Shown: positions 421 to 49,196 of the stretch, piece by piece | Layout: the number at the start of each line of letters is the position of its first letter | Numbering within the stretch: position 1 is the stretch's first letter | Source: Ectocarpus siliculosus | Taxonomy: Eukaryota > Sar > Phaeophyceae > Ectocarpales > Ectocarpaceae | Direction of reading: 5' to 3' | Assembly (NCBI GenBank): GCA_000310025.1 | Contig: FN649749.1 | Location: 2,299,025 to 2,363,024, forward strand | Length of the DNA: 64,000 nucleotides | Position numbers and translations under genes: made by a program | Notes under the pieces: model-generated | Told to the model about the DNA's origin: nothing | Database searches by the model: none | Seen by the model: only the letters and a program-made list of their open reading frames with translations

Positions 421-2099
421 CGTTAGTTCCAAGACATGGTTGTTATGTAGTCCCGCAGGTTTGCTGTCTCTCTAGTGTTTGGGTGAGCAGACCCGAGATA
501 GCTTGACAAGACAACCGTATTCGTCTGACGAACGTTGAAACACGCACAACCCCGTCCTTGATACTACATATGGTGGTATAAGATTTGGTCACTTTTCATG
601 CCTCGGCATTTCTTTCTCTCGCCCCAGCGAGTTTTTTCTCGCGGCTCCTTCTCAGGGGCACGCAGGAGGCCCGTCGGTACAATAACGCCCGTGTCCGGAG
701 CTCGGCGGACCTCCGTGGCGCGTGTAAATAACCGTCAAAGTTGCGAAAATTAGCTCAAAACCCAGGGGACGCGTTCCGCGACGACAATGCCTCCCTAAAC
801 AATTCCTGAAACCTCTCTGTTGCATACCAGGAGATGTTTCCCCAGCAAGTTTAGAGAACACGGTCCCACACGGTCGAAAACGTTTTGGAATCATTTCGAT
901 GGTTCCTAATCGGTGTAGCATCATAGCAGCCTTCACACTGTGTGTGTCCATGCGTACGTTTCTATGTAACGTGGTTCTTCACCCACAGCTTCGGGGCCGC
1001 GACTCTGCTTTGAACTCTCACCTCCGGTTTGCAATTGTATTGTGTGGAAGATACAGTCACATACCTAATTCATGGTCCATGTTGATTAGAACACGTCATG
1101 CCAGTCACAGAATTTTTCGGATCTTTTCTTCATAGGTCAAATCTATCTCCCCGATTTTCTCCGAATGGGTGCGGGCCATCACTGCACCGGCTGCACGCTC
1201 CCCACAGATGGATTCACAACAGCAGTGTAACACATGTCTATTTATTCACACATACTGTGCGGTGTATGCATCGGCATCAGCACTCCTTCTCGGGGCTGGT
1301 CATGTATAGAACTATGTGTCTATAGTCTACATGTACAGGCAAAAGTCCTATTCCACACGAAAAAAGAAAAACCTGCTCCAAAAGCAAAACATTGCCGTGG
1401 CATGCAAATATTCGGCTGCCCGCACTCGCTCTCACGATGGCTCTCCTCGCATCCACTCCTTCTACACCCTCCCTCTCATCACAAATCACAGCTCACACCG
1501 CCAGAACAGCTTCCACCCTCTTTCTCTCCCTTCGTCAGTACACCGTACACCCATGCCTCGCCAAAGCGCCGCCAAGCCTCCAGCGCTGCTACCAACCCAT
1601 CGTTCCCCTTCCGCCTAACTAAATGGTTTTCGTGTTGCCACATCCGTCCCATGATACATGCGATGTTTTGTACGGGGGCGAGCACTACCGAACTTTGCAA
1701 TTTAATCCATGACTTCACTTTTTCCTTTCCTACTTGCGTCACCCCCGGGGGGGCTGACACCAACGTCCCGAAGGGGGACCTTGTTCCAGCATATATGTAG
1801 GTCGCCAAGAGCTTTCTACATGGATGGACTGCAGGCGACATGTAGTGTACAGTATCTACCAAACATCCACATTAAATTGAAAATGAATGCTTCGACTATT
1901 GGTCAAAGTGCCCGACTCAAACCATCCCTCTATAACAATAATTCTCTCAACGAGTTACTACATATATTCCAGCGGGCAAAAAGCACCACATATTGTACTG
2001 GTATTCAACACCGGGACTTCTCAGACCATCTTCAATATAGTTGATGTCTGAGCGACGCGCGGCATTGTGTAACTCCATCGGTTATCGGTGGCCCCAGAG
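421..2099. other. 3' flank of first unit; no gene seen
   Basis: This stretch holds the 3' flanking part of the first repeat unit, recognisable by matches to about 6,800-7,200 and 12,500-12,900. Open frames are short and overlap one another on both strands. A block near 1,300-1,650 has several overlapping frames caused by C-rich composition only. No exon can be supported. Confidence 0.5.
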
Positions 2100-4789
2100 C
2101 TAGGCGTGACCAGAGTGTGGGTTGAATCGGAACGAAGGCTTGATGCGCGCGTAGTCAATGAAGATGACCTGCCGATTGGTTTCCCGACATGGGCAAGCAG
2201 CGAGTGGCCACCCAAGGTGGGCGCGGAAACGGGTAGGTGTTGACGTCAAGGTGTGTCACTATCGGCGAGGGAACAAGTCATACATACGGTGGTGTGGAGA
2301 TGTATACGGTGGTACTGTAGTGAAAACTTGTCGCAGGGAACAGTGCCCGCTGGAGGGAGATGTCGTGGGCCGTGTGGTGGAGGTAGTCGAATACCGCAGC
2401 TACACTCGTGAATGTGCAGAGAGGTGTCCGACGAGGAACTTTGGGTTGGTCCGGTTGAAACTGGAAGGAAAGACAAACAAACATGGAACAGCAGTGCATA
2501 GTCTACAGTAGTCTACATTATATCTCGAGGGCATCGGTACCTCTTTCGATCCCGGTGTGTGAATACGGATGAGGACCTCGTTGCTGTCAGTATCGAAGTA
2601 GTCGCTGATGCAACGCTTGGACTTCTGGCTCTTCGTCCTCGTGGTATTGATGCGTTTCGGGGCATCGCCGCAACGATCGCCGCTCGCAACCACCAGGTTC
2701 GACGTGGTCCAATCAGAACCCGCCTTGGAGAGGTCACCGATCTTGTCCCACTTCTTCCCTCGTCTCGAGTTGAACATATCTACTTGCCAGCGGTCACCGC
2801 TGCCCTTCATGACCAAGGCAGAGAGCTCCAAGGTCAAGATCTGCCGGAATGTCAAGGCGCCCCGAGAGAGTAGAAAGTCATCTCAAGATATTTTCTGATA
2901 CCCAGCATTAACGTAATTTGGAACGAAGTAGGGGCCGAAACAATTGGAGTGGTTCGTTCCAAATTTTTGGAACCTTTTCCAATTTTTTTTTTTTGATATT
3001 TGGAAATTTGGAGCGAAATAGCGCTGCGTTTAAACGGTATGCCTGCTCCATTTCCCAGATCCAGTGAAACGAAACTCGCACTCACATTAGCGTCCACATC
3101 GCCGAAGAGCAATGGCGCGCTGAAACTGAACTCGTACTGGCGGGAATGCAGGAAAATAGGAGGGTGGCAAGAGGGTAGACGGCGGTGGGAAAGACGTGTC
3201 GGAAGGCCAACCCTATTCCATGTTATTGCATGTGGAAACGGGCGTTTCACCATTGACGGGTTGACGAGCGTTCGCCTCCCGCGTATGCATCTAACGGCAA
3301 CACTCACTCGTACACGTCGTGAACAAGCCGGCGACGACATGCATGACGATCAGAGGCCCAGCTAAAACTTCGTCGAACGCGCACTACCACACACACATAC
3401 CTGACCTCCTTTGAACTTCCCGCCTGCCGATTTCGAGGCGAGGCGAAGGTATGTCTCGTCGTTTGCACGCGAGATCGGTAAACCCTCCCCTGTCTGTCAC
3501 ACGGTGTGAAAAAGAAGAGGGTGATGATGCGGTGGACTGGTTGGGTGGGTCTGATACGGTACCCAAGGTATCCATTTTCCATGGAAGGTACAATTCGTCC
3601 ACGTGCTTTCCTGTAGTGACACGGAACATATTCCAACCTGCGTTAGATAGACCATGTCTGTCTGTCTCTGTTGCGCGCATATACCGACATTGCCAGCCAT
3701 TTCACCAGATGCCTTGCACGCCGAGGGAATTTCGCTGACCACGAATGGGAACGCTACAGGTGCCATGGACCCCAGACGGTCATGGTTTTCGCAGCAAACA
3801 AACCCAGCCTGTACGTCAGTGTGCTATTATATTCTGCTTTGTCACGACTTTACGGTACAGAAACTCAGGGTACCGGGCGCGCCGTGTATTGCCCTTCACT
3901 TGCCGTCAACCAACACGCGGATTTCCGCACACGCGGGACAAGACGATCATGCCACACGATTTTCTCCGACCTCGTGTCATTCCAGGCATAGTTGACACTG
4001 AAACTACTGTACAGTAGTATGTCTTCGGAAGAGTTCCTCTGCTACTGTGGGTTTGGTAGTCGAGCGTGAAGAGCGGCCTGAAGTCCGATTTCAATTTTCA
4101 CCAACTTAGTTCAGACGCTTGCAGACGCCGGCGAGAATCTTACCTGTTTCGATTCTTGAAATTGTTCATGTTTCGCAAAAAATGGCATTGTTAGTCAGTC
4201 AACCAACCTGCCTAGACCTACTGTTCGTAAATATTCGCCTTCTTCTGCTTCACGTGTTGGCTAGAATGGTGCGTTCTATCCGGGTCTCTCAGCACGCTCT
4301 GTCTACTACGTAGGGATCAGGGCTTTGGAAAGATTCAATCGAGCAGACTCTACAACAGAGGCATGGTGAGGGGCATACGATTCGTTCGCCGAACTGAACC
4401 AAGCCGGAAGTGCGCCCAGGTAATCGATCCAGGAAGGGCCAAATGTGATGAAATGGAACAAGCCGGATGGAGGGGATCTTGCCCTTCAGTACACGAACAT
4501 CTCTTTGAACCACTGAGGGCCGACACGACGACCACCTTCGGCCCAGCCTGGATCACAAAACGATCACCAAATTTTCGAAGCCACTCGCTTGGGTATGCAC
4601 CGATTTGTAGAACTTCGTCTTACGGACTGAGGGCCTTCTTACCCAGAGGGAGAATTCATCTTGACCTCGTTCGAATCCAGCCCCCGATATTTTCTCGACC
4701 ACGTTGCAGGTACCTCCTATGAATGGTGTCCATCCGAGGGCAGCCCCGAGAGCGCCAGCCGTAGACAAAAGAAGGAGACCACGACCCAT
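2100..4789 (-). CDS. small secreted jelly-roll-type protein, copy 1
   Basis: Five-exon gene, all introns in phase 0: exons 4643-4789, 3401-3493, 3086-3136, 2541-2840 and 2100-2168, giving 219 residues and a TAG stop. Exon 1 starts with MGRGLLLLS and a hydrophobic core, a typical signal peptide, so the product is probably secreted. Exon 2 contains GLPISRANDETYLRLAS, exon 3 FSFSAPLLFGDVDAN, exon 4 WDKIGDLSKAGSDW and NEVLIRIH, and exon 5 VIFIDYARI. Read together, the pattern (LTLELSA, W..iGD..., DYv, vLiRihT, fiDYa.I) is that of beta-sandwich accessory domains found in many secreted polysaccharide-active proteins; I infer carbohydrate binding, but the family is not proven. Splice sites are all GT-AG. 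Two cysteines flank a basic insert in exon 4. The same exon structure recurs in the next two copies. Confidence 0.75.
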
Positions 4790-7229
4790 GGTTGCACGTT
4801 CTGCACAGTCCACACTCTGTGCCCGAAAGAATGGTTATTGGGAAGAAGGGGGTGAAACTAGGGGCGCGAAAGGTAGACCGACAGACCGGGCGAAGAACGA
4901 CGAACGGAATCAAGACCACCCACAAACATAAGGATTGTTCACTGCTCATTGGATGAGCCACAAGCAAGCAAAAAGCGAAAGTTGGGAACGAGAACCCAAT
5001 ACATATGTAACGTGTTCACAATTTTGATCGACATCGTGCATATGGCCCGAGCGCATATGGATAATGGGCCATCCATGTAACCTCTGGGCCATTGAGACGT
5101 TCACAAGCCTCAGGGAAGGTCGTCCAACATCGCACCTCCCTCGCAGAACATTTCACAGGTGACAGGCATTTACGATCCGCATACGTGTTTTTGACAAAGG
5201 AGGTAACGATATCGTTAACCACAAATCGATTCCTTGACGCAGTACATCCATGGCACGAAGGTTCGGTGTCGCTCGAGCCAATGTACTCAACATCATAATG
5301 TGGCGCCTTGGGCGTATTCTCTTCAACACCCGTCTAAATTACCCTTATGTTCTCTTGCCTCACCGTTGTTGTTCTAGCTGAAGAGGCAGATTCTGATGTG
5401 AGATGGCGATGCATTCGCGGAGTAGGTATGTGAAGTTGTGTGTGAGGAGGACCAGATGTGTTCGACATGAAGAATGGAATGGATCTTTAATCTGGAGAAA
5501 CACGTTGAACTGGCGAGTGTCCCGTCGGTGCAATCCTGTTCAGCCAAAACTCTATATCGAAACAGGGACATCTAACGATACCATGGGAATCCTGAGGTCG
5601 AGGCTAGCTGTGCCAAGTCTTCGGAGACAGCGTTCGGCTTCAAGTTCTCCATTGAAAGCGCGTTCCAAAACAACACCAAATAAGGCCGTAGGGAACTCCC
5701 GTAGTTTGAGCCACTGGATTTCTTAAGGGAGGTGCAAGTTAGTGCAACATTCATACGCCGTGCGTCGTCCCTTTTAGTACGACGTTTGGATGTGTCCCAG
5801 CGTACCATGTAGATGGGCCGGACCTGCTGCTTTGAGGACCACAGCTCTTGACTTCGGATACAGACACGGCCGGCGGGGGACGGGGTGTGCGTGCTACCAT
5901 ATGATATTCTGAGGTGACACAACCAATACTTGTAGACTAGGTGAACAATGCGTGCGAAGTCTTCATCGTGGGAGTGATTTCAGACCGTGTTACTGTGTGT
6001 TGCTAACCCGCTGGAATGCGAATCCACACGCAGGCGAGTGTATCTGAACGTACAGTACATTATGTAGACATTTCGCTTCACCCGATGCTCTCTTTCATTC
6101 ATCCTTACAGGAAGATATCTCATTCACTATGCAACAAAACGAAACTTGTGAGCAACTACCATCGTAGAAGGTGCCATGATCTCCAGGAATATTCGGTTTG
6201 TAGTCTGGGCATAGTCGAATGGTAATCTAGGTGAACGTGCGACTCCAACTGTCGTTCTTCCATCACTATTGTGAGTGGCCAAACCCGCTGGCGTGTTGCA
6301 CTCGAGATGCGTGTGGCCGTTGAATGGGCGCACAGTCCGTGTATTCGAGCATGTTCAATCACTGAACGTTGTGACAATCCCGCCAAGAGTACCAATACTG
6401 TAGCCGTTTTCTAACTGGTCACAGTTGTTGCGGAATCATCGCCGCCAAACGCTTGGGGGAGATATCGGACTCGGTTGTGTTTCCTGGAATGAGAGAGATG
6501 TTTTATACCGCGGCGTTCAGAAAGGACTCAGTCCGAGGTGTTGCAGGCAGCATTCATTGTATTCCCAGCGCGACGACGAATGGCACATTCGAGAGGCGCC
6601 ATCATCCCCCCCATTGGTTAATGCTTGGTGTGTCTCAGAATTCATCGCATGGTTTGATTCACACTGGTTTGGCGGATACTGCTGCATCCAGGTACGTACG
6701 CTGCAATCACAGCATCCTCTACCCTTCGCAATAGTCGAGGGTGACGTCTCGGCAGAATTCAAATTCCATTGGTGTTGTTGGGATGAGTTTGCTGCCTTTT
6801 GGGTTGGCAGGTTTCTCTGTCTCTCCTGCGTCTGCCTGGGTCTGAACAGACCCAGAATAGCTTGTCAAGAAAATCACATCGTTCTGGCTTTGTGACGATG
6901 ACACACGCGCAAAGCAACCGTCGGTCGATACACCAACCGATCTGTAAGGTCGGAACGGAGATATCGACTGCTGAACATATCCGAACAACGATCTCAAACT
7001 GAAAGCGAATCAAATGCTTCCCACGTAGACTACCGTCTATATACCAGACCTTCGCCTTCACGCTACAACAAGAGTAACTCAAACAGTCACATGCTGCCCA
7101 CGGGCGACCACAGTGGACTTGCACTGGAATACAACACAGGGACATCAAACTTCATTGTTCTATCAAGGTGTTTTCTGAAGGTGACGTGCGGGGGATCGTG
7201 TCAGTCCATCAATTTTCCGTGGCCCAGAG
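4790..7229. other. spacer between copies 1 and 2
   Basis: This stretch holds the 5' flank of copy 1 and the 3' flank of copy 2. Two stretches keep a reading frame on the minus strand between units: around 5,580-5,660 (…LASTSGFPWYR; compare about 10,730-10,830, …LVSTSAFPWYR) and around 6,230-6,330 (FNGHTHLECN with AGLATH; compare 11,930-12,030, VNGHTHFMYL with AGLATH). They could be exons of a second gene in each unit or conserved upstream sequence. Neither could be assembled into a gene. Confidence 0.4.
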
Positions 7230-9956
7230 CTAGGCGCCACCAGCGTGTGGGTTAAGTCCGAAAGAAGCCTTTATGTGCGCGTAGTCGATGAAGACGACCT
7301 GCGGGGATTGGTTTCCCGGCATCGGCAAACAGGGGGTGGTCATCCACGGGAGGCGCGGAAACGAGCAGGTGTTGTCGTCAAGGTGTGTACAGTATGAATA
7401 TTGGCTAGGGAACCCATGGTATACACTGCGGTGTGGACATGTACACGGTGGCAGAGGTGGAAACTTGATGCGAGAACAGTGCCGGCTGGAGGGAGATGTC
7501 GAGGGCCGTGTGGTGGAGGTGGCCGAACGCCGAAGCTACACTCGTGAATGTGCGAGAGAGGGGTCAGACGAAAAACGGCGGTAGATAAGCTAGTCTACAT
7601 CGCGACACGCGGACATGGGCAAATGGAGGAGGAGCGGTACCTCTTTCGATTCCCGCGTGTGAACACGGATGAGGACTTCGTTGCTGTCGGTATCGAAGTA
7701 GTCGCTGATGCAGCGCTTGGGCTTCCATCTCTTCGTCCTCGTGGTATTGATGCGTTTCGGGGCATCGCCGCAACCGTCGTCGCTCATCACCACCAGGTTC
7801 GACGTGGACCAATCAGAACCCGCCTCGGAGAGGTCACCGATCTTGTCCCACCGTTTCCCTCGTCTCGTGTTGAACATGTCTACTTGCCAGTGGTCGCCGC
7901 TGCCCTTCTTGACCAAGGCAGAGAGCTCCAAGGTCAAGGTCTGCCGAAATTTCAAAGAAGGCGCCCGGAGAGGATTGACACACCACAGTAGTTGTGCTGA
8001 TAACCATCATGAACGTACACGTAGCAAAAGATGGTGCCTGTTCCATTTTCCAGGTCCAACGAACACAAAAATACTCGTACTTACATTGACGTCCACATCG
8101 CCGTAGAGCAATGGCCCGTTGAAGCTGAACTCGAACTGGCGAGATTGCAGGAGTACACGAAGGTGTCAGAGGGGTCGATGGCGGCGGTAACGAAGTTTGT
8201 CGCACGGCCAACCCAATTCCAACAAATGATTTTCCAGTGCGACCAGTTAGGTCAGACGGCGTGCTTTCGAATACTGTAGTCTAAAGCGTCCCGTCGGAAA
8301 TATCATACCCCGAAAGACCGTACACCGATTGATGTAGTCTACGAAGCGTTGCTCCGACTCGGGCATAGTGTGTCGTAAACCTCCCTGGTTCTAGGGTGGG
8401 AACGCCGTGGCTTGCACAGGTAGGTACATCTGGAACCGTGCGTTTCAGCATGGGTTGATGAACGTTCACCTCCCATGTATTGTATGCATCTGGCAATATG
8501 GCAACACTCGTAAACGCCGGGAACAAGCCGGCGACGAATGACAGAGCCCGCCCCAAAAACGTCGGCGAACGTGGTGCGGCCATACACACGTACCTTACCA
8601 CCCCCCTTGAACTTGCCGCGTGCCGGTCTCGAGGCGAGGCGCACGTATTCAGCCTTGTTTGCACGCGAGACCGGCAAGCCCTCCTTCGTCTGTCGCATGG
8701 CGTGAAATGGAAGAGACGTCAATGACCCGGTGGGTTGGTTGGATAGGCGGGTTTCATTCATAACCCGATGCATTCAGACTTTGTGCTATTCCTGATTACG
8801 TCGTTTCTGTGATGCGGAACCAACCGATCCCCACCAGGTCTCTTTCGTGCGCATATAGCGACATTGCCACCGAGACATTTCACCAGATGCCTGGCATGTC
8901 GATGGAACTTTGCTGGTCACAATTGCGAACGCTACAACAGGTGCTGTGAACCCCAGACATGTCTATTCGCAAATAAACTGAGCGTGCATGCATACCACGG
9001 TGCTCGGCATTGCCATGACTTTGCGGTACGGTGACATAGCGCACCGGATGCGCGTGTTGCGCCCGTCACGTGTTTTCCACGAACGCGCGGAATTGCACAC
9101 ACACGGGACAAGGCGAATCTGCCACTTGAGTTTCTTGGACCTTCCATCATCCCGGGCTCGCGTGACATTGAAACTTGGTACATCTTCAGACTACTATGGT
9201 TCGGTGTAGTCGGTGTGAAGGGCGGAGTGAGGTCAGATTCAATATTCACCGAATTTCTTAACGGATTCACGAGACGCCTGCTTGCTTCGATCGTTTGAAG
9301 ATATCGTTCGCGTTTCGGAAGGATCGGCATCATTCGTCAACCAGTCGCGCCCAGACCTACACCGCGCCAATCAGTGCCGCTTCATCAAGTCTTTGTCATC
9401 GGAATGATATGTGCTACCACGGCCTCTCTGGTACACTTTGTCTACCAAGAAGGAATCAGGACTTGGGATGATTCAACTGAGCAGCCTCAACAACAGAGGC
9501 CCGATGAGTGGCATGCAATTCGTTTGCCAAACTGAACCAAGACGGAAATAATGAAATAATAAATGCATCCACACAATCGGACCGCTGCGACGGGCCACGT
9601 CTGTCTCAGGAGCTTGAATAAGCCAGATGCAACGGGCCTTGCACTACAGTGTACACGAGTATCGCCATCAACCCCTTCGGACAACATCACCGCCTTCGGC
9701 CCAGCTATATTCCCAGCCTGGAACACACGAAACGATCGCCCATTTTCGAACATACTCGCTGGAATGTGCACCGACTTGCCATTCATCGACCGATGGAAGG
9801 CCTTCTTACCCAGAGGGAGAATTCATCTTGACCTCGTTGGAATCCAGCCCCCGATATCTTCTCGATCCCGTTGGGGGCGCCTGCTATGAGTGGCGTCGAT
9901 CCGAGGGCTAGTCCGAGAGCGCCAACCATAGACAAAAGAAGCAGACCACGACCCAT
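7230..9956 (-). CDS. small secreted jelly-roll-type protein, copy 2
   Basis: Second paralogue, exons 9810-9956, 8594-8689, 8085-8135, 7641-7940 and 7230-7298, all phase 0, 220 residues with a TAG stop. Exon 1 encodes MGRGLLLLSMVGALGLALG, a signal peptide. Exon 2 (GLPVSRANKAEYVRLAS) has one extra codon near its end and uses AAG|GTACGT as donor. Exon 3 encodes FEFSFNGPLLYGDVDVN. Exon 4 has the same 100 codons as copy 1, including WDKIGDLSEAGSDW and NEVLIRVHT. Exon 5 reads VVFIDYAHIKASFG. No stop codon or frameshift interrupts the model, so this copy looks functional. The third intron is only 144 bases. Start choice rests on the hydrophobic N-terminus shared by all copies. Confidence 0.75.
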
Positions 9957-12900
9957 GGTTGTACGTTGTGCGCTGCTCGCTCCCTACGCGAAACGTTGAA
10001 TGGGATGGAACATTGTTAGCACCACTCGCTCTGCACACGAAAAGGAGGGCGTGCATAGGGACGCGAGAGGTAGCCGGACATGACTCCCAAAGAGATGAGG
10101 CACGGTGTCAAGACCACACAGGTCATATTGCGATTGTTCACTGTACTCATCAGATGCGCCACAAACAAACCAAGGGCGAAAGCAGGGAGAACGAAGTAGA
10201 GTCGAAACGTCGTCACTGTTTTCATCGACGACGTCGTGAAAAGGGCCCGAGCGCACATGCATTACCTGCTACGGTAGTTATGTAAACTCTGGGTCATCAG
10301 CGGGTTCACAAGCCTCGCGGAAGGCTGTCCATCATCATACCTCCTGCGCAGAAAGTTCCGCAGGTGGTAGGTTTTGACGAGCCGCAGACACTACAAGGCC
10401 AAGGTCAATGACGAACGCTAGAAAAATATGGATTCTTTTTCCGCGGTACGATGGTTCGGCGTTGCCCAAGCCAATGTGCTCAACACCATCTACCCCCGTC
10501 TAGCTGTATGTACTCTTGCCTCACCGTTGTCTTGGCTGAAGAAATAGGTTGGTTCTGGTGCGAGATGGCGATGAACCGGCGGAGGTAGATAGGTATGTTA
10601 GGCTGTGTGTGACGAGGACGGGAACGTTTCGAGAGGGACAAAGGCATGGATCTTCAATCTGGAGAAACGAGTTGAATCGATGAGTGTCCCGTCGGTGCAA
10701 TGTCCTGTTCAGCCAAAGCCCTATGTCGAACAGACCAACGACAACGAACGATACCATGGGAACGCTGAGGTTGAGACTAGCTGTGACACGTCTGTGGAGA
10801 TGGCCTTCCGTTTCAAATACTCCGCCGTTGGGCCTGTTCCCAACGAACACCACACCCAAACACCAGAAACATCCGCAGGGAAATTCAGCCGATTTACCTG
10901 CGTTCTGGGGACTTGCCAAAGTTCGTGCAAAGATCATACTCATAACGTCGTCCCTTTCAGTACGCCATTGGGAAGTGTCCGTTTCCTGTCTCTACGGATG
11001 GAGGCAAATGTGACCACATCTTCTCTTGTCTTCGGAGACAGACATGGCGGGCGGTGGACGATATGTTCATTAGAGAATACGATGTAGGAGGTTTGAGAGC
11101 GCCTTGGAGAATCTGTAGGTCAATACTGTATGCGAGGTGTGCATCGTGAGAGTGAATTCAGACCGCATATTGTGTGTTGCGAACCCGTTAGAATGCGAAA
11201 TGCACGGGCAGGCGAGTGTGTCTGAATTCACTACCCTAGATATGCTCTATTTCATTCATCTTAGCAGGAGGGATCATCCACTATGAAACAAAAAGAACTC
11301 ATGAGCCATGGATGTCGTGGAAGATGGAGTGATCTTCGTTCGGGAATATTCGGTTTGCAGTCCGGACATTGTCCAATGGGAGATTTCGATTGGCGACTTG
11401 GTCATGATCGGCACTTTTGGTTTCAGTCGAAGCCCCGTCAACCGTCCAATTCGCGAGGCATTTGATACGACAAGAGGTCACGTCGTGAGCGATTCGCCGT
11501 GCCTCGCAACCAGGCTGGCGAGATTGTGTGCATTCAAAACGGACCCCTCCCCCCAACTGTCCTGAGTAATAGTGGATTGACAAATGTCCGTAACCCGAAG
11601 ACCTCCGACCTCCGCAGCAAGTGAACCCCAGTAGACAGACCAGAGGATTGGACTCACGAGTGAAAGGTCGAGTAATACTCTTGACAATTTGGCCAGGGCC
11701 AGCCCGCACTGAGGGGAATAGGAGCGTTTCCTTGGATGGGTCCAGCTGCACAGGTGTTGGTCAAAAATGATCTAAGATGGGAAATCCCTTCCTATCGCAG
11801 CGGATATCAGCGTAGCTTAGAAACGTGCGCGTGATGATCCTTGTCCCTGGTGGCTAGCCGAGAGGAAGTTTCCTGAGTGGTTTCGTTACCGCATCTAGGT
11901 GAACCTGCGAGTACCAGTGGCGCTCTCCGATCACAATCAGAGTTCTATAGTGAGTGGCCAAACCCGCCGATGCGTTGCAATCGAGATACATAAAGTGCGT
12001 GTGACCGTTTACTGTGCGCATAGTCCGTGTATTTGACAATTATATTGAAATCACTGAATGTTGTGAAAATCCCATCGAGAGTTCCACTATTGTAGCCATT
12101 CTCTAACTGGTGACGGTTGGTGCGGAATCATCGTCAACGTCAAACGCTCGGGACATATTTTGTAATTCGTTGTATTTCTTCGAATGAGAGAATTGTTACA
12201 TGCCGCGGCGTTCGTAAGAACTCAGTGTGTGTATTTTTTTTTCCTTAATTTAACTCAGTCCGAAAATATCTGCAAAGCTCACAAGAGCACCAGCACTCGT
12301 TGTGTTCCCAGCGCGACGATGAAAGGTATATTCGAGAGATGGCGTCACCCCTCCCAGTCGTTTCTTCTACTGTAGGTGTATCACATTATTCATCACATGG
12401 TTCGATTCACTGGTTGGCGCACACTGTTGACGCCACGTACGCTAAGCCAGGTGCGCAGTTTTCGAAAAAATCGAGGATGTCGTCTCGACAGAATTGAAAG
12501 TCCATTCCTGATACTTGTATTGCAAGGACTTTTCTATATAATCTGGTCAGCAGGTTCGCTGTCTCTCCTGTATCTAGCTGGGTTGAACAGACAACCACGT
12601 CGGTCTGACCAACGTTGACACACGCGCAAACACCCGTCCGTCCATACGCCAACCGATCTCTTGAGGTCGGAACGGAGCTATTTACATCGACTACATTGGT
12701 ACGTGTGCATATCGAACAATGATCTCAAACTGAAAGCGAATCGAATGCTTCCTACGTAGACTACCGTCGATATACCAGACTCATACCATGCCTCTCCTTC
12801 ACGCTACAACAACCATCGATTCAACAGTGACATGCCGCCCACGGGCGACCACAGTGGACTTGGACTGGTATGGAACACAGGAACATCCCACTTCTTTCTT

Positions 12901-12965
12901 CACTCAAGGTGGTTTCTGAAGGTGGCGTCCTCAAGTGTAGTCTATCAATTTGCGGTGGCCAAGAG
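9957..12965. other. spacer between copies 2 and 3
   Basis: This stretch is the 5' flank of copy 2 and the 3' flank of copy 3. Apart from the inter-unit similarities described for 4,790-7,229, no gene can be supported. Confidence 0.4.
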
Positions 12966-15900
12966 CTAGGCGTGACCGGTGTGTGGATTGAATCCGAAAG
13001 AAGCCTTGATGTGCGCGTAGTCGATGAAGACGACCTGCGGGGATTGGTTTCCCGACATGGACAACCAGCGGGTGGCCACCCAAGGAGGCGCGGAAATCGT
13101 CAAGATGCGTGTAAATTTTTGCGAGGAAAACCGTGATGTAGTCTAGTCAGTGGCATGGGAGGGTGTTGGGGGGACGGCGCCGATTGGAGACGGATCTCGC
13201 GAGCCGAGTGATGAAGTAGCCAAACGCCGAAGCCACGTTGGTGAAAGTGCGGAGGGATGTACAAGGACGAGGAACTTCCGGGGGGGGCAGATGAAATTTA
13301 AAGGAAGGACAAACATGAACGAGCACAGGTCAGATATCATGACTTGTGTACCTGTGATAAGGCGGCAGTAGCGTACCTGGTCCAATTGAAAAGTGTGAAT
13401 ACGGACAAGAACTTGGTTGTTGTTGTCCTTGTCCATGCAGTTGCGGACGCAACGCTTGTTGCTTGGCGCTTCATCGCTGCAACCATCGTCGCTTATCACC
13501 GTGAGCGTCGAAGTGGTCCACTTAGAACCAACCTCGGAAAGGTCACCAATCTTGTCCCACGTGTGGGTGTTGCTGTTGAGTAGTGCTACTTCCCAGTGGT
13601 CGCCGCTGCCCTTCTCCACCAAGGCTGAGAGCTCCAAGGTCAAGGTCTGCCGGAACATAACTCAAACGACCGGAAAGTATTGGAAAACGTCAAGCTGTCG
13701 TGCCGAAAAATCTGCCGTCGATGTAGCGAATAATACGATGGTCGAGTAGGACCTGGTCCAGTCATCTACAATATGGTACTTGGTGGTATGGTGGAATGTT
13801 TCATGGAGTTCCATGGAGTTCCTTCCATGGAGTTCCATGGACGTCCATGGAACGTTCCATGGAAATCCATAGAAGGTCCATGGAATCCATGAAAGTAAGT
13901 CCGTGAAAACAATGAAAAGTTTCATGGAATTCCTTGGAAGTTCATGACACCATGTCCATGGAAGTCCGGGGAAGTCCATGAAACACTTCAAGATGGAAGT
14001 GAAACAAATATTGTCAGGAAGCACGCAACAAGGGGGCACGAGCTTCGCCGTTTTCCCTACAAACGAGGAAATTTAATGTTTAGAAAAGAGGAAACACCTA
14101 CTACTGCTACTCTAGTTTCCATGAAAGTTCATGAATGTTCCGTGAAAATCCATGAAAATATTGATGGACTTCCTCCATGAACGTCAACGAAAAAAACATG
14201 GAATTCCATGAACGTCCATGAAAATTTTCATGGACATCATCCATGAACGAACACAACTGAAATATTTCATCGATGTTCATCATGAACCATGTGCCATAGA
14301 CTTCATGAACTCTCAAGAACTCTCATGGGCGTTCATGCAACATGTATTTCATGAACATTCATGGGCGTTCATTGAACATTTCTTCGGCAGCACATGGAAT
14401 CTTTCATGGACGGTTATCGACGTTTCATGTAGCCCATGAAAACTTTCATGGACGGTCATCGACGTTTCATGTACATCTATGAACTTTCATGACCGTCTGT
14501 GAAATGTGTCAAAGGGTGTTCATGCAAGATTCCGTGGAACTCCACGAGCGCTCATGAAACTTTTCGTGGGTGTCCGTCATTTCGTGGTTGTCCATCGACC
14601 ACACGTTCCATGACACATTCCGTCAACGTTCGTTCATGGGCGCTAATGACGCATGTCAGGAAATTTCAGGAAATGTTTTTATGAACTGTTTCACGACATG
14701 TAGTGTATTAATTTCATTACAAAATGTCGTGGACATCAACGGAACTATTCACGAAAGTTCTGAAAAAAAGTTTCAAACTTCCATCTATGGGATTCCATGG
14801 AATGTTCATGGAAGTTCATGGAAGTCCATGGAAGTCCATGGAAAAGTACGAAAATGTACAAGCCTGGTCCTTTTTCCTCGTCCAACGAAAACGTTAAACA
14901 TACATCGTACTCACATTTGCGTTCATATCACCAAATATTATCGGCTCGCTGAAGTCCAACAGGTACTGGCGAGATTGCAGGAATACATGAGGTTGACAGT
15001 GGGGCAGGGTGGTGGTGAGATGTTAGTTTGTGGGTCGGCCACGTCTATTCCAATTGTTGTCGTCAAACCGCACGGCGTGCATCAGGTTTCTGCGTCAATC
15101 GAAACCATCATACATACTCGTTTACACAAGACAACCCATATAGGCTACGAAACGTTGCCCCCACTCAGGCATAAGCCTGTCTGCCTCTAGAAGGCCGGGG
15201 CACCGCGACTGCCCAACGAGCTACCTGGACCAACAACTACTTACAGCATTCCCCATCTTCGCATTCTGTAACGAGCATGTCAGAACGGAATAGACAACAA
15301 GCGTCCCGGATTGTCTACAGCCAAACCCATTAGCAAATACCACCGAACAATCGAGCTGGTCACGGCTTCCATGACCGTCCGAGCTTCTCTCCGACAACTT
15401 CGTCATGCCCTCCGCACATACCTGACCGCGTACGGTGGTTCCGACTGTCGGAGTCGAACCGAGGCGAACATATGTGTCCTCGCTAGAATGCGCGATGGGC
15501 AAGCCGTCCTTTTCCTGTCGTATCGCGTCAAATGTCGGCGATTGTTTACATGGGCTGTTGAGTCTGTCTGATGCACTATTCGAGACTGACTGTGGATGGT
15601 GGTCGATGGGAGTAGACAGTAGACGTCACAATTCAACTACTCGGCGATTCCTGGCGGTCTTTTTTCGGTGACGCGCGACCAATTCCGTCTGAACGTCGCA
15701 TTCACAGGTACACGCGACATTCAATTCGTTTTGTGGACGGGGCCGCGACAAGTCTCCTCGCTTCGATTCTTGGCATTTGTCTTGTGGATGAATGGGCTAG
15801 ACAACGGTATCATGAATTTTTCCAGACCTTGTTCTATCTATGCACCTTGCTTGTTCTTCACCAAGCGGTGGCGACTGAAGGATGAGTTATGCCCACATCC

Positions 15901-16690
15901 CTCAACGCCTTCGCATTTCCTACTCTCAACGATGCGCAAGATTTAATCTATAGTAGGGGTCACGGTGTAGGAAATTGCAACCAGAAACAGAATGCAGGCA
16001 GGTACATACAATCTGTTTGAGCCGTTCTGAACCAAGAAAAATATTCTCAGCATGGGTGACTTGTCCACACACCTGGTCACCCAGAGTACACAACGACATG
16101 GTATGGTGAGAGCAACAGATTTGTGTTGGGAGTAGACTACATGCGAACGAGAAACCGGGGCAATTGCCTGTTTGCTATCGCAACTGTAGAACGGCCAGTC
16201 TTCGCAAGCGGTACCAGTGTTAGAGCGAGCACCGCATACCTTCAGGCGGACCTTTGGGACGGGTCAAATCTGCGGATCTGATCTGGAACAGGTCGGAGGC
16301 AACGGATCTTGCACTACAATAGGTACACGAAACACGTCCACCAATGAACCTTAGCACAAACACCGCCGCCTTTCGGCCCACCTTCCCAGTCTACATGTAA
16401 AACTGAGAAAACAACCACTACCTAAGGAACAATTTTTGGTGACCTACTCGCTGGAATATGCACCGACTTCGAAGTCGTTGAATAATCTCGAGGGACTGAT
16501 GATGAGAGCACGTGGAAAAAACGCAAGAATGTTGAATGCTTACCCAGAGGGAGAATGCATCTTGACCTTCTTGGAATCTAGCCCCGTAACGCCTCTCGAT
16601 TCCGTTGCAGGTACCCGCTATAAATGTCATCGATCCGAGGGCAACCCCGAGAGCGCCAGCCATAGACAGAAGAAATAGACTGCGTCCCAT
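12966..16690 (-). CDS. small secreted jelly-roll-type protein, copy 3
   Basis: Third and most diverged paralogue, exons 16544-16690, 15422-15514, 14915-14965, 13377-13646 and 12966-13034, all phase 0, 209 residues with a TAG stop. Exon 1 encodes a signal peptide (MGRSLFLLSMAGALGVALG). Exon 2 has GLPIAHSSEDTYVRLGS, exon 3 LDFSEPIIFGDMNAN, exon 4 is 30 bases shorter than in the other copies but keeps LTLELSALVEKGSGDHW, WDKIGDLSEVGSKW and QVLVRIHT, and exon 5 gives VVFIDYAHIKASFGF. Most amino-acid differences are substitutions in an intact frame, so the copy is probably expressed. Its third intron (13,647-14,914) is 1,268 bases against 245 and 144 in the other copies because of the CATGGA repeat insertion. 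Confidence 0.72.
13795..14850. repeat. CATGGA/CATGAA-rich imperfect repeat tract
   Basis: About 1 kb in which self-complementary words of the type tCCATGGa, TTCATGAA and aCGTCCATGAA recur every ten to thirty bases in imperfect tandem. The two ends (13,800-13,870 and 14,795-14,850) are nearly pure CCATGGA repeats; the middle is more degenerate and includes a stretch without the motif (about 13,980-14,100). The tract is wholly inside intron 3 of copy 3 and is absent from copies 1 and 2. It may be a satellite expansion or a foldback element. Confidence 0.85.
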
Positions 16691-18466
16691 GGTCGCGAAC
16701 GTTGTGCCCTGTACACAAAACATTGATCGGGAGAGAGGGGAGCGTGCACATGCGGGCGCGAGAGCCAGTCCGATTATGGCTGCCGAAGGTTGTCTATAGC
16801 ATCGAACCTCCTGCGTAGAAAGGTTCCAGGGTGGCATCGTGTGACGGCGCGCAATACAAGACGAAGAGGAGAATGAACAACGAAGCCAATTTGTGACTCC
16901 TTGCCGAGGTGCGTCCAAGGCACGACTGCTCGGCGTCGCGCTACAAATATGCTCAACACAATCGTGGAGCACCTTGCGCGAGGGAGAGGTATCCTCGTCC
17001 GGTGTATGTAGCTGGAGATACTGTACGCTGCTTCTCACCGTTGAATTAGTTGAACGAGAAGGTTCTGGTATGTGAAGTCGATGTACTCGCGGAGCAGGTG
17101 GTTGAGGTTGTGTGTGAGGAGTAAGGGGGAGGTGTAGGACATGAAGGAGGGGATCGTTGGTCGAGAGATGAGTTGAGTGATTACAGTAACATGGGACTGT
17201 CGGACACTAACAGAAGCTAATTTTACGATCTACCGGTGACGCGTCTGCGCAAACGTTGCACCTCTGTCCCCGTACATTCAAAATTTGCCAACGTTGCTTG
17301 GTTTCGAAACCTCCGCGGCAAAACACATTCCAAACGACACCAAAGAAATCGAAAACCTGCTGTTTTGATAACTGGAACCCTTGCTAATTGCAACACGTCC
17401 TGCATGAATTCACAGGTATTGATGCGTCGTCATCATTTCGGAAGGGCTCGCTGCCCAGCACGAGGTGACTCCAGGCAAACTGTTTCTCTACAGATGGAGG
17501 TACATCAAACGCCGCTAAATAGTGTCTTAGGAGCAAGGACGGCGGGTGCCTGTAGGATACGATTTGTCTACATTGTGAACGCTTGGCCGATAGGGTCGTG
17601 CGAGGAGTTTGTCGCGGAACGGTTGAAGTGCAAATTGTAACGTTCACCCGCTGGCGTTGGAGTGGTCCACAGACAGGTGTTAACGACCCTAGCCGCACGT
17701 ATTGCCCCACACCTTCCAACATCTGCGCCAGCCCAACTGTCGCGGTCCTTCCGTGGTCACAATTTAACTGCCCCGAAAGGGTGAACGCTACGAAAACCAA
17801 AAACAGAGAAAAATAAAAGGTACAACGCCTTGTTCTTCCATATCTGCCGGGTGGTACCCTCTACTCATCCCTCAGACATAAAAAAAATCCCATTAACCGC
17901 CACGCCTGCCTGTCCGTGTGTCCTGTAGTGGCTCGGCGCTAACGAACAAGTAATGGATGTGAAACACAAACGATTGGCGGAAGGCGGGGTTAATTCGTGC
18001 TTCAGACGAATGCCGTGGCAACAAGACAACACAAATTCCCTGCTCCACAACGTACCGTGCCGTATCTGCACGATGACAACGAGCACAGCCGCGCTTGAGA
18101 ATTACGAACGAGGGTATTCGCAAAAACTCAAGTTACAGCCTCAAAACCCTCCGTCAAAAGCAGCTCCGATCTAGAAGGAAACACGCGGAATCAACTCCTC
18201 AAACACCCATATCTCCAGCAAGAACATATCACTACGAGTCATTGCTGTTGATACAACTTCGCACATAAACAGGATTCCAGTCCTATAACATAAGCTGGTG
18301 GAATTTTTGGCATCGAAGGCACCTGGACGCGAAAAAAACAATGCATGCTCCTCCGGGGGCAAGTTCAATAGCGACAACACCCATGCTCGCGATCCGAAAA
18401 ATCAACTATGCTCCTTTTGTATTGTTCAGGTCTCTACGCACGTCTCTCCGACGACGCCCGAGACGT
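16691..18466. other. 5' flank of copy 3 and region before EXO70
   Basis: This stretch holds the conserved upstream block of copy 3, a possible fragment of a fourth paralogue (listed separately) and about 600 bases downstream of the EXO70 stop in which no gene is seen. Confidence 0.4.
17645..17750 (-). pseudogene. possible fourth-copy exon 2 fragment
   Basis: On the minus strand one frame reads VGLAQMLEGVGQYVRLGS followed by LTPVCGPLQRQ. This lines up with exon 2 of copy 3 (GLPIAHSSEDTYVRLGSTPT…RGQ). No matching exon 1, 3, 4 or 5 was found nearby, and the splice sites are not clear. I read it as a remnant of a further paralogue; chance similarity over about 25 residues is possible. Confidence 0.35.
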
Positions 18467-33788: not shown

Positions 33789-42502
<8,714 letters not shown>

Positions 42503-42962: not shown

Positions 42963-44137
42963 TCGGTTGACATCGACCAAGGCGATGCTCAGCGTTGGGT
43001 CACTCCTCTGATGATGGCCACTCACGTGGGTAACTTCCGCATAGGAAAGGCCCTGATCGCCAACGGAGCCAACGTGTCAATGGTGGCCGTCGACAGCAGT
43101 CACACGGCCATCCATGCTGCACTATAATACTGTGCTGATGATCGGGGCTGGTGCCGACCTCGAGGTCATGACATCTCAAGGCTCCACACCGCTTCACAAG
43201 GACGCATTAGAAGGGAGATCTGAAGTGGTGGGAGTGATGATCAGGGCACTCGCGAATCCCAACAGTCGGATGTTATGCGGAGCGGCACCGTTGCACATCG
43301 CGGCTCAGTTCGGACCCGCGAACGCGACGGGGGAGCTGCTTCGTGGGAAGGCGAACCCGTTCTTGACCAAAAAAGGGAATTCATCATCGGGGGATACTGC
43401 CATCCCAATGGACGTAGCCGTCCAAAATGGGCACTCGGACGTGGTGCGCAAGCTAGTCCAGTGGAGAGGTTGTGGTGTCGCAAATGCCGGCAGTCAAGCT
43501 TGTCAAGCGCTCTTTTTTGCTGCGTCGGAACAACACCTGGTCATCATGGCCATTCTGACTGGAGCAGGCGTGGTGGACTGGGTGGGCCTATCTCTCTTGG
43601 GTGCCGCCGAAAGTGCCCTTGAGGCATCCGTCAAGTTTCTCTTGCGGCAACGGTACCACGAGAGCACACGGAGCGTTGAATACTCGTACGTCAACGCCAG
43701 CGACACTGACGGCTGGACGCCCCTGGCTCATAGTATTCAGCGGTGCTGTTCGCACGCCGCCAGGATCATACGTTTGCTATTTGACGCGGGAGCAGATGTG
43801 GCATCGGCTGTTCGAGTCACAAATTCGAATGGACAACAGGAATACTCCGGGACGCCTCTGGCTGTCGTGACGTCGTGCATCCGTGAGAAGGTTTTAGCGA
43901 ACGGCACGCCCGCTACGGAGGAGCACCTGTACATGCTGGAGGCCATCGGTCGCCTGCTGCTGTTGGAAATCGAGGGTGTCTTGGATGTGGGCAAGCGACG
44001 CTCCCCTCATCGGCCATGCTGGACCACCGCTGATGCTTATGTTGCCGACCCTGCAGCTACGGAAACAGCGACGTGGCGTGCTTGCGGCAGCGATCTTGAG
44101 GTGGGGAGGGCGACAGGTCACTGAATGTACGACATGA
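42963..44137 (+). pseudogene. ankyrin-repeat protein, frameshifted
   Basis: Ankyrin repeats are readable in three successive frames. The first (to 43,127) has WVTPLMMATHVGNFRIGKAL and GANVSMVAVDSS; the second (43,114-44,124) has GADLEVMTSQGSTPLH, GAAPLHIAAQFG, AVQNGHSDVVRKLVQW and DTDGWTPLAHSIQ; the third, from about 43,970 to a TGA at 44,135, continues with SWMWASDAPLIGHAGPP. Overlapping frames leave no room for introns, so at least two frameshifts have disabled it. Divergence from a good ankyrin consensus is modest, suggesting recent decay. Ankyrin proteins of this kind form large families in brown algae (established knowledge); this member has no other recognisable domain. Confidence 0.75.
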
Positions 44138-46586: not shown

Positions 46587-47138
46587 AAACGTAGTTCGAG
46601 GAAAGCCTATGGCTTAAGATACCTGGGGAGCGGGGTGAGAACGATTTTGTTTCTAGGGAACGTATACGTCCCACCGTCGTCGAAGAAAGTCGCAAGCAAG
46701 GCGCAGGAAAACTTCGCACAAATTGGGGAAGATGTCCAGGGGTTTAGTAGGAAGGGAGAAGTTGTCATGGTTGGCGATTTCAACTCCAGAGTAGGGAAAG
46801 CTTCCAGTAGAGGACAGGCGATCGGGCAGCACGGACAAGACAAAGTGAATGGCAACGGAGTGAGGATGCATGAATTCTTGGGAAGCAACGAGCTGATGGA
46901 TTTTACGGTAGGAGGGAATGCGATAAGCCGGAGTTCCCCCGGCAAAGGGCAGTTTGCAATGAATACTCCATCCTCGACTACATCCTGGTAGATAGGGGAG
47001 CACACAGATCCCAGAGCTGCACGTAAGTGCGATAGATATAGGTTCGACCGACCATTTCTCATATGGGCAAACATTGACCGATCTAGAAAGACGGAGAGTG
47101 AGAAACAGAGGAAAGTATTCCGTTGGAAAGTAGAACGT
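46587..47138 (+). pseudogene. LINE endonuclease domain, frameshifted
   Basis: Apurinic-endonuclease-like remains spread over at least three frames: LWLKIPGERG, then GNVYVPPSSKKV and MVGDFNSRVGK, then SILDYILVDRG and IDIGSTDHF before the frame used by the downstream RT. The catalytic-region GDFN and the DH near the end are still visible. No N-terminal part is present. Confidence 0.75.
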
Positions 47139-49196
47139 TTGGGAGACGAGGGGACACGGGATGAATTCCAGAAAGGACTGGCTGGTAGTGTAGAACTCTT
47201 CAGGAAACTGCTGAGAAGCGTCGAAGACGGACAGGTAGACGTACAAGCAGCAGGGGACAGGGTGATTGAAGGATGGGAGTCCATCGTGAACACAACGGCA
47301 GAGAGAGTAGTGGGAAAGAAGGTGGTACGATGTGGGGTATCGGTTAAGTGGTGGGATGACGAGCTGAAAGAAGAAATAGGGGAACGTAGAGAAGTCTTCA
47401 AGCAGTACCTGAGTGAGGGGTCTGAGGAGAGATGGGAAACGTACAGGGCCAAGAGGAAACAGGTGAAGGGACTAGTGAAAAAAAAGAATAAATTCATTTG
47501 GGACGAAGTAGTGCAGAAGGCCGACGGAGGCCTGGAGGGGAACGCCAAGCAGATGTGGGAAGGGATTAGTGGAATGGTAAAAAATACCGCGCAAGGGGGG
47601 GATACAGGGGTAGCAACTTTGCGAGGTGTGAACGGTGGATTAGTCAGCAGTGGGAAGGGAAAAAGGGAAGTTCTAGCAGGAAACTACAAGAGACTTGGAG
47701 TGCCTTCGGAGAACGAAGCTTTTGACCAAGTGTTTAAGAAGGAGGTGGACGAATGGGCCCAGAAAGAAGAAGAGATATCGAAGGCAGACGTTGGGAACGT
47801 AGAACTAGAGAATGAGTTCACTGAGGACGAGGTTGAGGCGTGTGTGAACAAGTTGCAGTGCCACAAAGCAGCAGGGGCGGATGGGATAGTCAACGAGTTC
47901 ATGAAGTTTGGGGGGAATGGGATGATCCAGTTGATGGTACTGCTGTACAACTCGGTGTGGAAAAACGAGTATGCGCCAAGTAGATGGAGGGGAGGAGGAA
48001 TTGTGAACTTGTCTAAGAAAGGAGACAAGACTGACCCAGGAAACTACAGGGGTATCACACTGTTGAACACAGTAGGAAAAGTGTTTTGTAAGTTGCTGAA
48101 AGATAGAATAGTGGGAGAATTGGAGAAGGAACGAGGCATTAGTGAGGGCCAGGCAGGTTTCCGACAGAAGAGGGGGTGCGAAGACCACGCATTCACGGTA
48201 GGGAGAATCATCCAAGGTAGAAAGAGGGCGGGAAAGCCGACGTACTGCTTCTTCCTGGACGTGAAAAAGGCATACGATACCGTATGGAGAAATGGGCTGT
48301 GGAAACAATTGTCCAAGTACGGGATCAAGGGGAAAATGTGTAGAGTGCTGAAGAAGATGACAGAGGGTACGAAAAGCGCGGTCATGCTAGACGGAGAACT
48401 GTCTAAGTTCTTCGACATTGAGCAGGGGGTCCCACAAGGTTGCACGCTGTCCCCAACATTATTCCAGATGTTCATCAACGATCTGTTGGAAGTCGTAGAG
48501 GCAGTCCGGAAGGGAGTAAAAGTAGGGGACACGGAAACTTCGGTGTCGGGAATGCTGTTTGCGGATGATTTTGATGGTACGTCGGAAACCCCTGAGGGAC
48601 TGCAACTTCAAATTGACGCGGCGAAGAAGTTTACTGATAAATGGAGATTGTCTGCCAACGTTAAGAAGAGTGCCGTCATGGTATGCAACGAGGACAGGGA
48701 GGAACCAGTAGAACATAGATGGAAGTGGGGGGTCGAGGAGATTGCAGTAGTGGACCAGTACACATACCTCGGAGTAGAGATCGCAAACGACTGCTCGTGG
48801 AATGCACGCATGTCCAAGGTAGCGGAAAAGGGCAAAGCACGAGCAGGGAAGCTGCACCCAATACTCGCAAACCGGCACCTCGATACACGCATCAAATTGG
48901 CGGCTTTGAAGAGCGTAATCGTACCGCCGCTAGAGTATGCCGGAGAAGTATGGGAAGGAAATAAGAAGGTAGTGAAAGAACTAGAGGCGGCGCAGATGAA
49001 AGCAGCGAAAATCATCCTAGGATGCTCCAAGCGCACAAGTAATGCAGCCGTAAGGGCAGAATTGGGGATCCAATCCCTACGGTCGGGAAGAGACGCAAGG
49101 AAGTTGACATGGCAGTATCGCATGTGCGGGATGGGAGAGGAGAGGTTGCCGAGAATAGTATGGGAGGCGAAGTGGGCAAACAATAAAGAGGGGTAG
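47139..49196 (+). CDS. reverse transcriptase of LINE (inactive copy)
   Basis: Open frame of 685 residues. It contains KAAGADGIVNEF, NYRGITLLNTVGKV, QAGFRQKRGCEDHAF, motif A FLDVKKAYDTVW, QGVPQGCTLSPTLFQMFIND and the active-site motif FADD at residues 474-477, then YLGVEIAND and a thumb-like region. All main RT motifs are intact, so inactivation came late or is due to the flanking frameshifts. The ATG is simply the first in the open frame; the true polypeptide would have been fused to the upstream endonuclease. The clade is not resolved by eye. Confidence 0.85.
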   Translation: MGDEGTRDEFQKGLAGSVELFRKLLRSVEDGQVDVQAAGDRVIEGWESIVNTTAERVVGKKVVRCGVSVKWWDDELKEEIGERREVFKQYLSEGSEERWETYRAKRKQVKGLVKKKNKFIWDEVVQKADGGLEGNAKQMWEGISGMVKNTAQGGDTGVATLRGVNGGLVSSGKGKREVLAGNYKRLGVPSENEAFDQVFKKEVDEWAQKEEEISKADVGNVELENEFTEDEVEACVNKLQCHKAAGADGIVNEFMKFGGNGMIQLMVLLYNSVWKNEYAPSRWRGGGIVNLSKKGDKTDPGNYRGITLLNTVGKVFCKLLKDRIVGELEKERGISEGQAGFRQKRGCEDHAFTVGRIIQGRKRAGKPTYCFFLDVKKAYDTVWRNGLWKQLSKYGIKGKMCRVLKKMTEGTKSAVMLDGELSKFFDIEQGVPQGCTLSPTLFQMFINDLLEVVEAVRKGVKVGDTETSVSGMLFADDFDGTSETPEGLQLQIDAAKKFTDKWRLSANVKKSAVMVCNEDREEPVEHRWKWGVEEIAVVDQYTYLGVEIANDCSWNARMSKVAEKGKARAGKLHPILANRHLDTRIKLAALKSVIVPPLEYAGEVWEGNKKVVKELEAAQMKAAKIILGCSKRTSNAAVRAELGIQSLRSGRDARKLTWQYRMCGMGEERLPRIVWEAKWANNKEG

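Follow-up and report, generated by a model that had tools for sequence, protein, structure and literature searches.

Three tandemly duplicated genes of Ectocarpus siliculosus predicted to encode small secreted proteins of the GH114_assoc family

The window analyzed here is a stretch of 64,000 nucleotides from the brown alga Ectocarpus siliculosus (assembly GCA_000310025.1, contig FN649749.1, positions 2,299,025 to 2,363,024), and window coordinates are given from its first base. Three genes lie in a row on the minus strand, at 2100-4789 (gene 1), 7230-9956 (gene 2), and 12966-16690 (gene 3), with splice junctions predicted from the sequence. Exons 1, 3, and 5 have the same lengths in the three genes (147, 51, and 69 bases); genes 1, 2, and 3 have 93, 96, and 93 bases in exon 2 and 300, 300, and 270 bases in exon 4. 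The lengths of all 15 exons are divisible by three, phase 0 is kept throughout, all 12 introns are of the gt/ag type, and the spliced translations contain no internal stop. Gene 1 starts with the ATG at 4789 in exon 1 (4643-4789), continues through exons 2 (3401-3493), 3 (3086-3136), and 4 (2541-2840), and ends with a TAG stop in exon 5 (2100-2168). The corresponding exons of gene 2 are at 9810-9956, 8594-8689, 8085-8135, 7641-7940, and 7230-7298 (with the stop), and those of gene 3 are at 16544-16690, 15422-15514, 14915-14965, 13377-13646, and 12966-13034 (with the stop). Gene 3 exon 4 differs from that of genes 1 and 2 by one 30-base and two 3-base gaps. The predicted proteins have 219, 220, and 209 residues, and those of genes 2 and 3 are 78% and 59% identical to the protein of gene 1. 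Exon 1 of each gene encodes a hydrophobic N-terminus that is consistent with a signal peptide in hydropathy analysis. A preliminary description of this DNA had proposed a five-exon, phase-0 triplet with these exon lengths, a signal-peptide exon, and frames free of stops and frameshifts despite diverged introns; all 15 exons, their phases, and their splice ends were reproduced on the minus strand, the exon gaps are only 3 or 30 bases long, and the signal-peptide exon agrees with the hydropathy profile.

Comparison of window positions 1-26000 with themselves revealed a tandem duplication over 1993-17154, with units at approximately 1993-7118, approximately 7119-12859, and from 12860 to at least 17154. 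The period is 5.1 and 5.7 kb, and homology extends across exons, introns, and the intergenic and flanking DNA. The three genes therefore derive from tandem duplication of a 5-6 kb unit, and the local array of three coding genes that had been proposed is borne out by the homology of the units and by the intact exons. A whole-genome DNA search (189,456,909 bases in 492 contigs) and a search with the gene 2 protein found no copy beyond these three on the contig of the window.

The introns of the array contain repeated DNA. An element of about 120 bases with short inverted repeats lies at 2915-3037, inside intron 3 of gene 1, and recurs 14 times elsewhere, spread over 13 other contigs, 82-96% alike over the whole or part of its length. 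Intron 3 is 245 bases long in gene 1 versus 144 bases in gene 2, a difference that this element may explain. In gene 3, intron 3 is 1268 bases long; by eye, many degenerate palindromic repeats resembling TCCATGGA were seen in it (13790-14860), and inverted matches appear there in the self-comparison.

Pairwise dN/dS, calculated by the method of Nei and Gojobori, which ignores transition bias, was 0.59 for genes 1 and 2 (bootstrap range 0.37-0.93), 0.60 for genes 1 and 3 (0.44-0.88), and 0.57 for genes 2 and 3 (0.39-0.82). Genes 1 and 2 have exon identities of 0.77-0.91 and intron identities of 0.66-0.76, and their proportion of synonymous differences (0.185) is below the intron difference of 0.24-0.34, so that gene conversion or constraint may have lowered dS for this pair and made the ratio too high. 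Between copies generally, the aligned introns differ by 24-57%. The intron indel rate predicts 9.8 to 12.2 frame-breaking indels per pair in 640 exon bases, whereas none was observed (Poisson P of 5e-6, 5e-6, and 6e-5 for the three pairs); the intact reading frames are thus more than chance. The three genes are under purifying selection, as the earlier suggestion of selection on the proteins had supposed, with all pairwise ratios below 1 and the value of about 0.6 indicating weak constraint. No pair or exon gave dN/dS above 1, the maximum being 0.95 for exon 2 of genes 1 and 3, and positive selection was rejected as a reading on this ground.

All three proteins match the Pfam family PF14741 (GH114_assoc), with scores of 89.4, 95.6, and 62.3 bits against a curated cut-off of 22, and E-values of 2.7e-25, 3.2e-27, and 6.4e-17 for genes 1, 2, and 3. 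The matches span positions 2-123, 2-123, and 3-117 of the 126-position profile, with exon 4 encoding the core of the domain in each gene. PF14741 is the only Pfam family above cut-off in the three proteins, and the GH114 catalytic domain was absent from them in the same search. By sequence, the three genes add new members to a family that has a name but is uncharacterized, and here, at 62-96 bits, the domain is free-standing. The preliminary description had taken the family to be undescribed; that view does not hold, since the PF14741 profile fits all three proteins and additional copies occur on other contigs. None of 5.39 million papers searched uses the name GH114_assoc or glycosyl-hydrolase-114-associated, and PMC12054363 mentions neither algae nor the domain.

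Extending the search to the whole genome, as had been suggested, located PF14741 copies on contigs C48, C7, and C21. Nine candidates were scored and all nine matched at E up to 10, six of them above cut-off, namely the three window genes, two matches on C48, and one on C7, with the three weaker matches on C7 and C21; these counts are lower bounds because exons were scored one by one. On C48, two modules in one predicted gene reach 190.9 bits, and by eye the exon plan of both modules is again phase 0, with 51 bases in exon 3. The C48 gene has its own hydrophobic N-terminus as judged by hydropathy, a first intron of phase 1 in the N-terminal part, and one intron with a GC start, the latter two features also seen by eye. 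In the predicted C48 protein there is also an acidic stretch, and the C-terminal tail is hydrophobic and could serve as an anchor.

The C7 gene appears to have three GH114_assoc modules. One of them scores 56.4 bits with its exons joined; the first is weak, with a best exon E-value of 0.016 against our own domain profile, and, when joined by hand, it had no Pfam match at E up to 0.5. Pro/Thr-rich linkers lie between the modules on both C7 and C21. On C7, a single open frame leads from the final exon of the enzyme-proximal module across a Pro/Thr linker to a VDMVPC stretch, and C21 has the same order of module exon, linker, and VDMVPC stretch. Exons resembling the fungal deacetylase Agd3 follow the modules on the same strand on both contigs. 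Two of the C7 enzyme exon pieces, joined end to end, match PF25115 (Agd3_CE) with 33.2 bits (cut-off 27.6), although no single C7 exon exceeded the cut-off in the exon-by-exon genome search. The C7 pieces also align with Agd3 itself (PDB 6nwz) by phmmer, with E 0.014 and SHTMTH opposite SHTFTH. Between C7 module 3 and the deacetylase, two stretches had neither an Agd3 nor a GH114_assoc match (E up to 0.5), and one of these matched PT disordered repeats alone. In a set of six pieces that included the matching C7 ones, three had neither match, one being an unrelated frame of locus L022. Gene order, shared exons, and domain scores lead us to predict that module and Agd3-like enzyme form one gene on both C7 and C21.

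Genome-wide, the 23 PF25115 matches with E up to 1 are confined to C7, C21, and C12. Above cut-off were five matches on C12 and one on C21 (29.3 bits, only with neighboring exons). The C12 matches cluster at C12:738561-838344 and around C12:2454000, and with five above cut-off they form a local expansion of CE18-like deacetylases that was not expected in a brown alga. One Agd3-like C12 locus without GH114_assoc has a VDLVPC stretch after its own linker, akin to the VDMVPC stretch, and in one 10-kb slice of the C12 array no GH114_assoc was detected at E up to 5.

The name GH114_assoc implies a domain N-terminal to GH114, and the window genes have no such partner. The 22 matches to GH114 (PF03537) at E up to 1 are all on C2, C5, C13, and C26, and none is on C24, the contig of the window. 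GH114_assoc was absent from the GH114 loci L010, L011, L013-L016, and L025 when searched with our own domain profile at E up to 5, with flanks of about 1.5 kb (8 kb for L025), so that a distant 5' exon of a GH114 gene could be missed. Likewise, none of the loci L010-L017 and L025 appears among the best 60 matches of this profile, which extend to E 0.78. The GH114 partner that the name implies is therefore unseen among the examined loci of this genome, and we file the three genes by sequence family rather than as GH114 accessory domains, as there is neither a GH114 match on their contig nor the domain in these GH114 loci; a Pfam family takes its definition from the profile. In L010 (C2, 253-1101), the frame upstream of the GH114 gene lacks GH114_assoc, and inspection by eye shows instead a signal-like start, a stretch resembling a coiled coil, and a linker rich in Pro, Glu, and Ser. 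A 2024 survey of brown algal matrix CAZymes gives about five GH114 genes per genome, and its main text, as far as accessible, contains neither 'CE18' nor 'deacetyl' (PMC11468063). The GH114 enzyme Ega3 is specific for deacetylated regions of its polymer; in the accessible part of another source, GH114 is labeled as hydrolytic toward beta-1,2-glucan and not as a galactosaminidase (PMC9054022).

The modules differ in charge. The two C48 and two C7 modules analyzed all have a pI of 4.1 and net charges of -16 to -18, and the gene 3 module has a pI of 4.8 and a net charge of -10, in contrast to the unexpectedly basic modules of gene 1 (pI 8.7, +3) and gene 2 (pI 9.2, +5). Genes 1 and 2 encode a Lys/Arg-rich, 21-residue Cys-to-Cys loop within exon 4, Cys154-Cys174 in gene 1 (2610-2672, including one NTT sequon) with a net charge of +6, and Cys155-Cys175 in gene 2 (7710-7772) with +7, the coordinates being computed by hand from the exon. 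The matching stretch of gene 3 has 11 residues and a net charge of 0, and in the alignment the C48 modules have no Cys-flanked loop. Because these more distant modules lack it, a gain of the loop in the ancestor of genes 1 and 2 would be the simpler reading. The diversification proposed for the array is supported only indirectly: dN/dS never exceeds 1, and the support comes from the loop indel and the charge shift by which genes 1 and 2 differ from gene 3 and the four other modules analyzed.

Relatives outside the alga were sought by several routes. No solved structure matched the window proteins by phmmer or by profile. An AlphaFold model of exon 4 alone, a piece too small to be well predicted (mean pLDDT 57.9), consists of five strands with a single short helix, and in Foldseek no match to this poor model was better than E 0.45. 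The gene 2 protein found no relative among viral contigs, and the protein of exons 4-5 of C48 module 1 found none among prokaryote genome contigs and plasmids. A Thalassospira genome with a GH114 relative had no PF14741 match, and 2 of 14 control genomes matched below cut-off; 398 genomes from the phylum of Thalassospira gave no match either, with the controls also blank, so absence from that phylum is not established.

We consider the most probable function of the three genes, at a probability of about one half, to be that of secreted, non-catalytic carbohydrate-binding proteins of the algal wall or mucilage, each carrying one GH114_assoc module, duplicated and held under purifying selection. 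Repeated modules with Pro/Thr linkers before a polysaccharide enzyme are the usual plan of carbohydrate-binding modules, and it is from the predicted enzyme partners and linkers on C7 and C21 that we infer carbohydrate binding. The argument is indirect for the window proteins, since they stand alone with no enzyme partner. Tandem duplication produced three one-module genes, which purifying selection has kept, and their products are presumably secreted. On C7 and C21, the module would most likely hold the Agd3-type deacetylase on its polymer, and in the window, free of an enzyme, it may act as a lectin-like wall or surface protein. Known stand-alone lectins and carbohydrate-binding modules are likewise small, single-domain, arrayed in tandem, and, as predicted for the proteins here, secreted; the window proteins differ in matching no solved module, and their binding is putative. 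The ligand of the acidic modules could be an amino-sugar polymer, and for the basic genes 1 and 2 it might be a different glycan of the matrix, an acidic one.

The comparison with Agd3 bears on this reading. Fungal Agd3 is a CE18 deacetylase whose substrate, galactosaminogalactan, is a GalNAc polymer, and its N-terminal module CBM87 (residues 141-364) has an alpha/beta/alpha fold, according to the accessible part of PMC7229062. The C7 and C21 genes with GH114_assoc match its deacetylase domain, which the window genes lack. The mainly beta, weak model of exon 4 would, at low confidence, differ from the CBM87 fold, and no solved chain is matched in sequence.

A less probable alternative, which we regard as unlikely, is that the module serves the extracellular matrix as a structural or protein-protein domain, with the free proteins cross-linking wall proteins and binding no sugar. 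The two modules, acidic stretch, and hydrophobic tail of the C48 protein would suit such a role, as would the missing catalytic partner in the window and the lack of a match to solved carbohydrate-binding modules, but the repeated modules and Pro/Thr linkers that precede a predicted polysaccharide deacetylase argue against it. Still more doubtful is a role in defense or recognition, in which free modules would bind bacterial or fungal amino-sugar exopolysaccharides on the algal surface and the array would diversify under pathogen pressure. GalNAc polymers are known in fungi and agd3-like operons in bacteria (PMC7229062, accessible part), and the local array, signal-like N-termini, and differences in loop and charge among copies fit this proposal; the dN/dS values and the small size of the array, three copies with few others in the genome, do not. 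That the genes are relaxed, partly redundant paralogs heading for loss is very improbable, because stops and frame-breaking indels are lacking and all splice ends are kept while the introns differ by 24-57%, even if a dN/dS of 0.57-0.60 would be compatible with it.

Beyond the carbohydrate-binding reading of the three genes, a wider and highly speculative possibility is that an extracellular system based on an amino-sugar polymer, comparable to galactosaminogalactan in fungi, operates in brown algae, with GH114_assoc as its binding module, set free in the array. Genes 1 and 2 would then have reversed their charge by gaining the basic loop, so that the target of the module shifted from a cationic amino-sugar polymer to the acidic matrix of the alga itself (alginate or sulfated fucan). 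A predicted fusion of GH114_assoc to an Agd3-like enzyme, in a genome with GH114 genes, provides PF14741 with a function that can be tested and is a hint that brown algae may have an amino-sugar polymer; this fusion and the change of charge are the parts most worth following.

Other features lie elsewhere in the window. A long reverse-transcriptase frame at 46992-49196 (PF00078, 113 bits) is probably a LINE-like element, ankyrin repeats occupy a 355-codon open frame at 43057-44124 (PF12796, 59.2 bits), and a lyase exon at 38316-38783 (PF00206, 63.3 bits) presumably belongs to a fumarate hydratase. The EsV-1-7 domain is expanded in brown algae, and its repeats (PF19114) are very numerous in this genome, with 880 first-look candidates and at least 150 matches (150 of the 150 scored).
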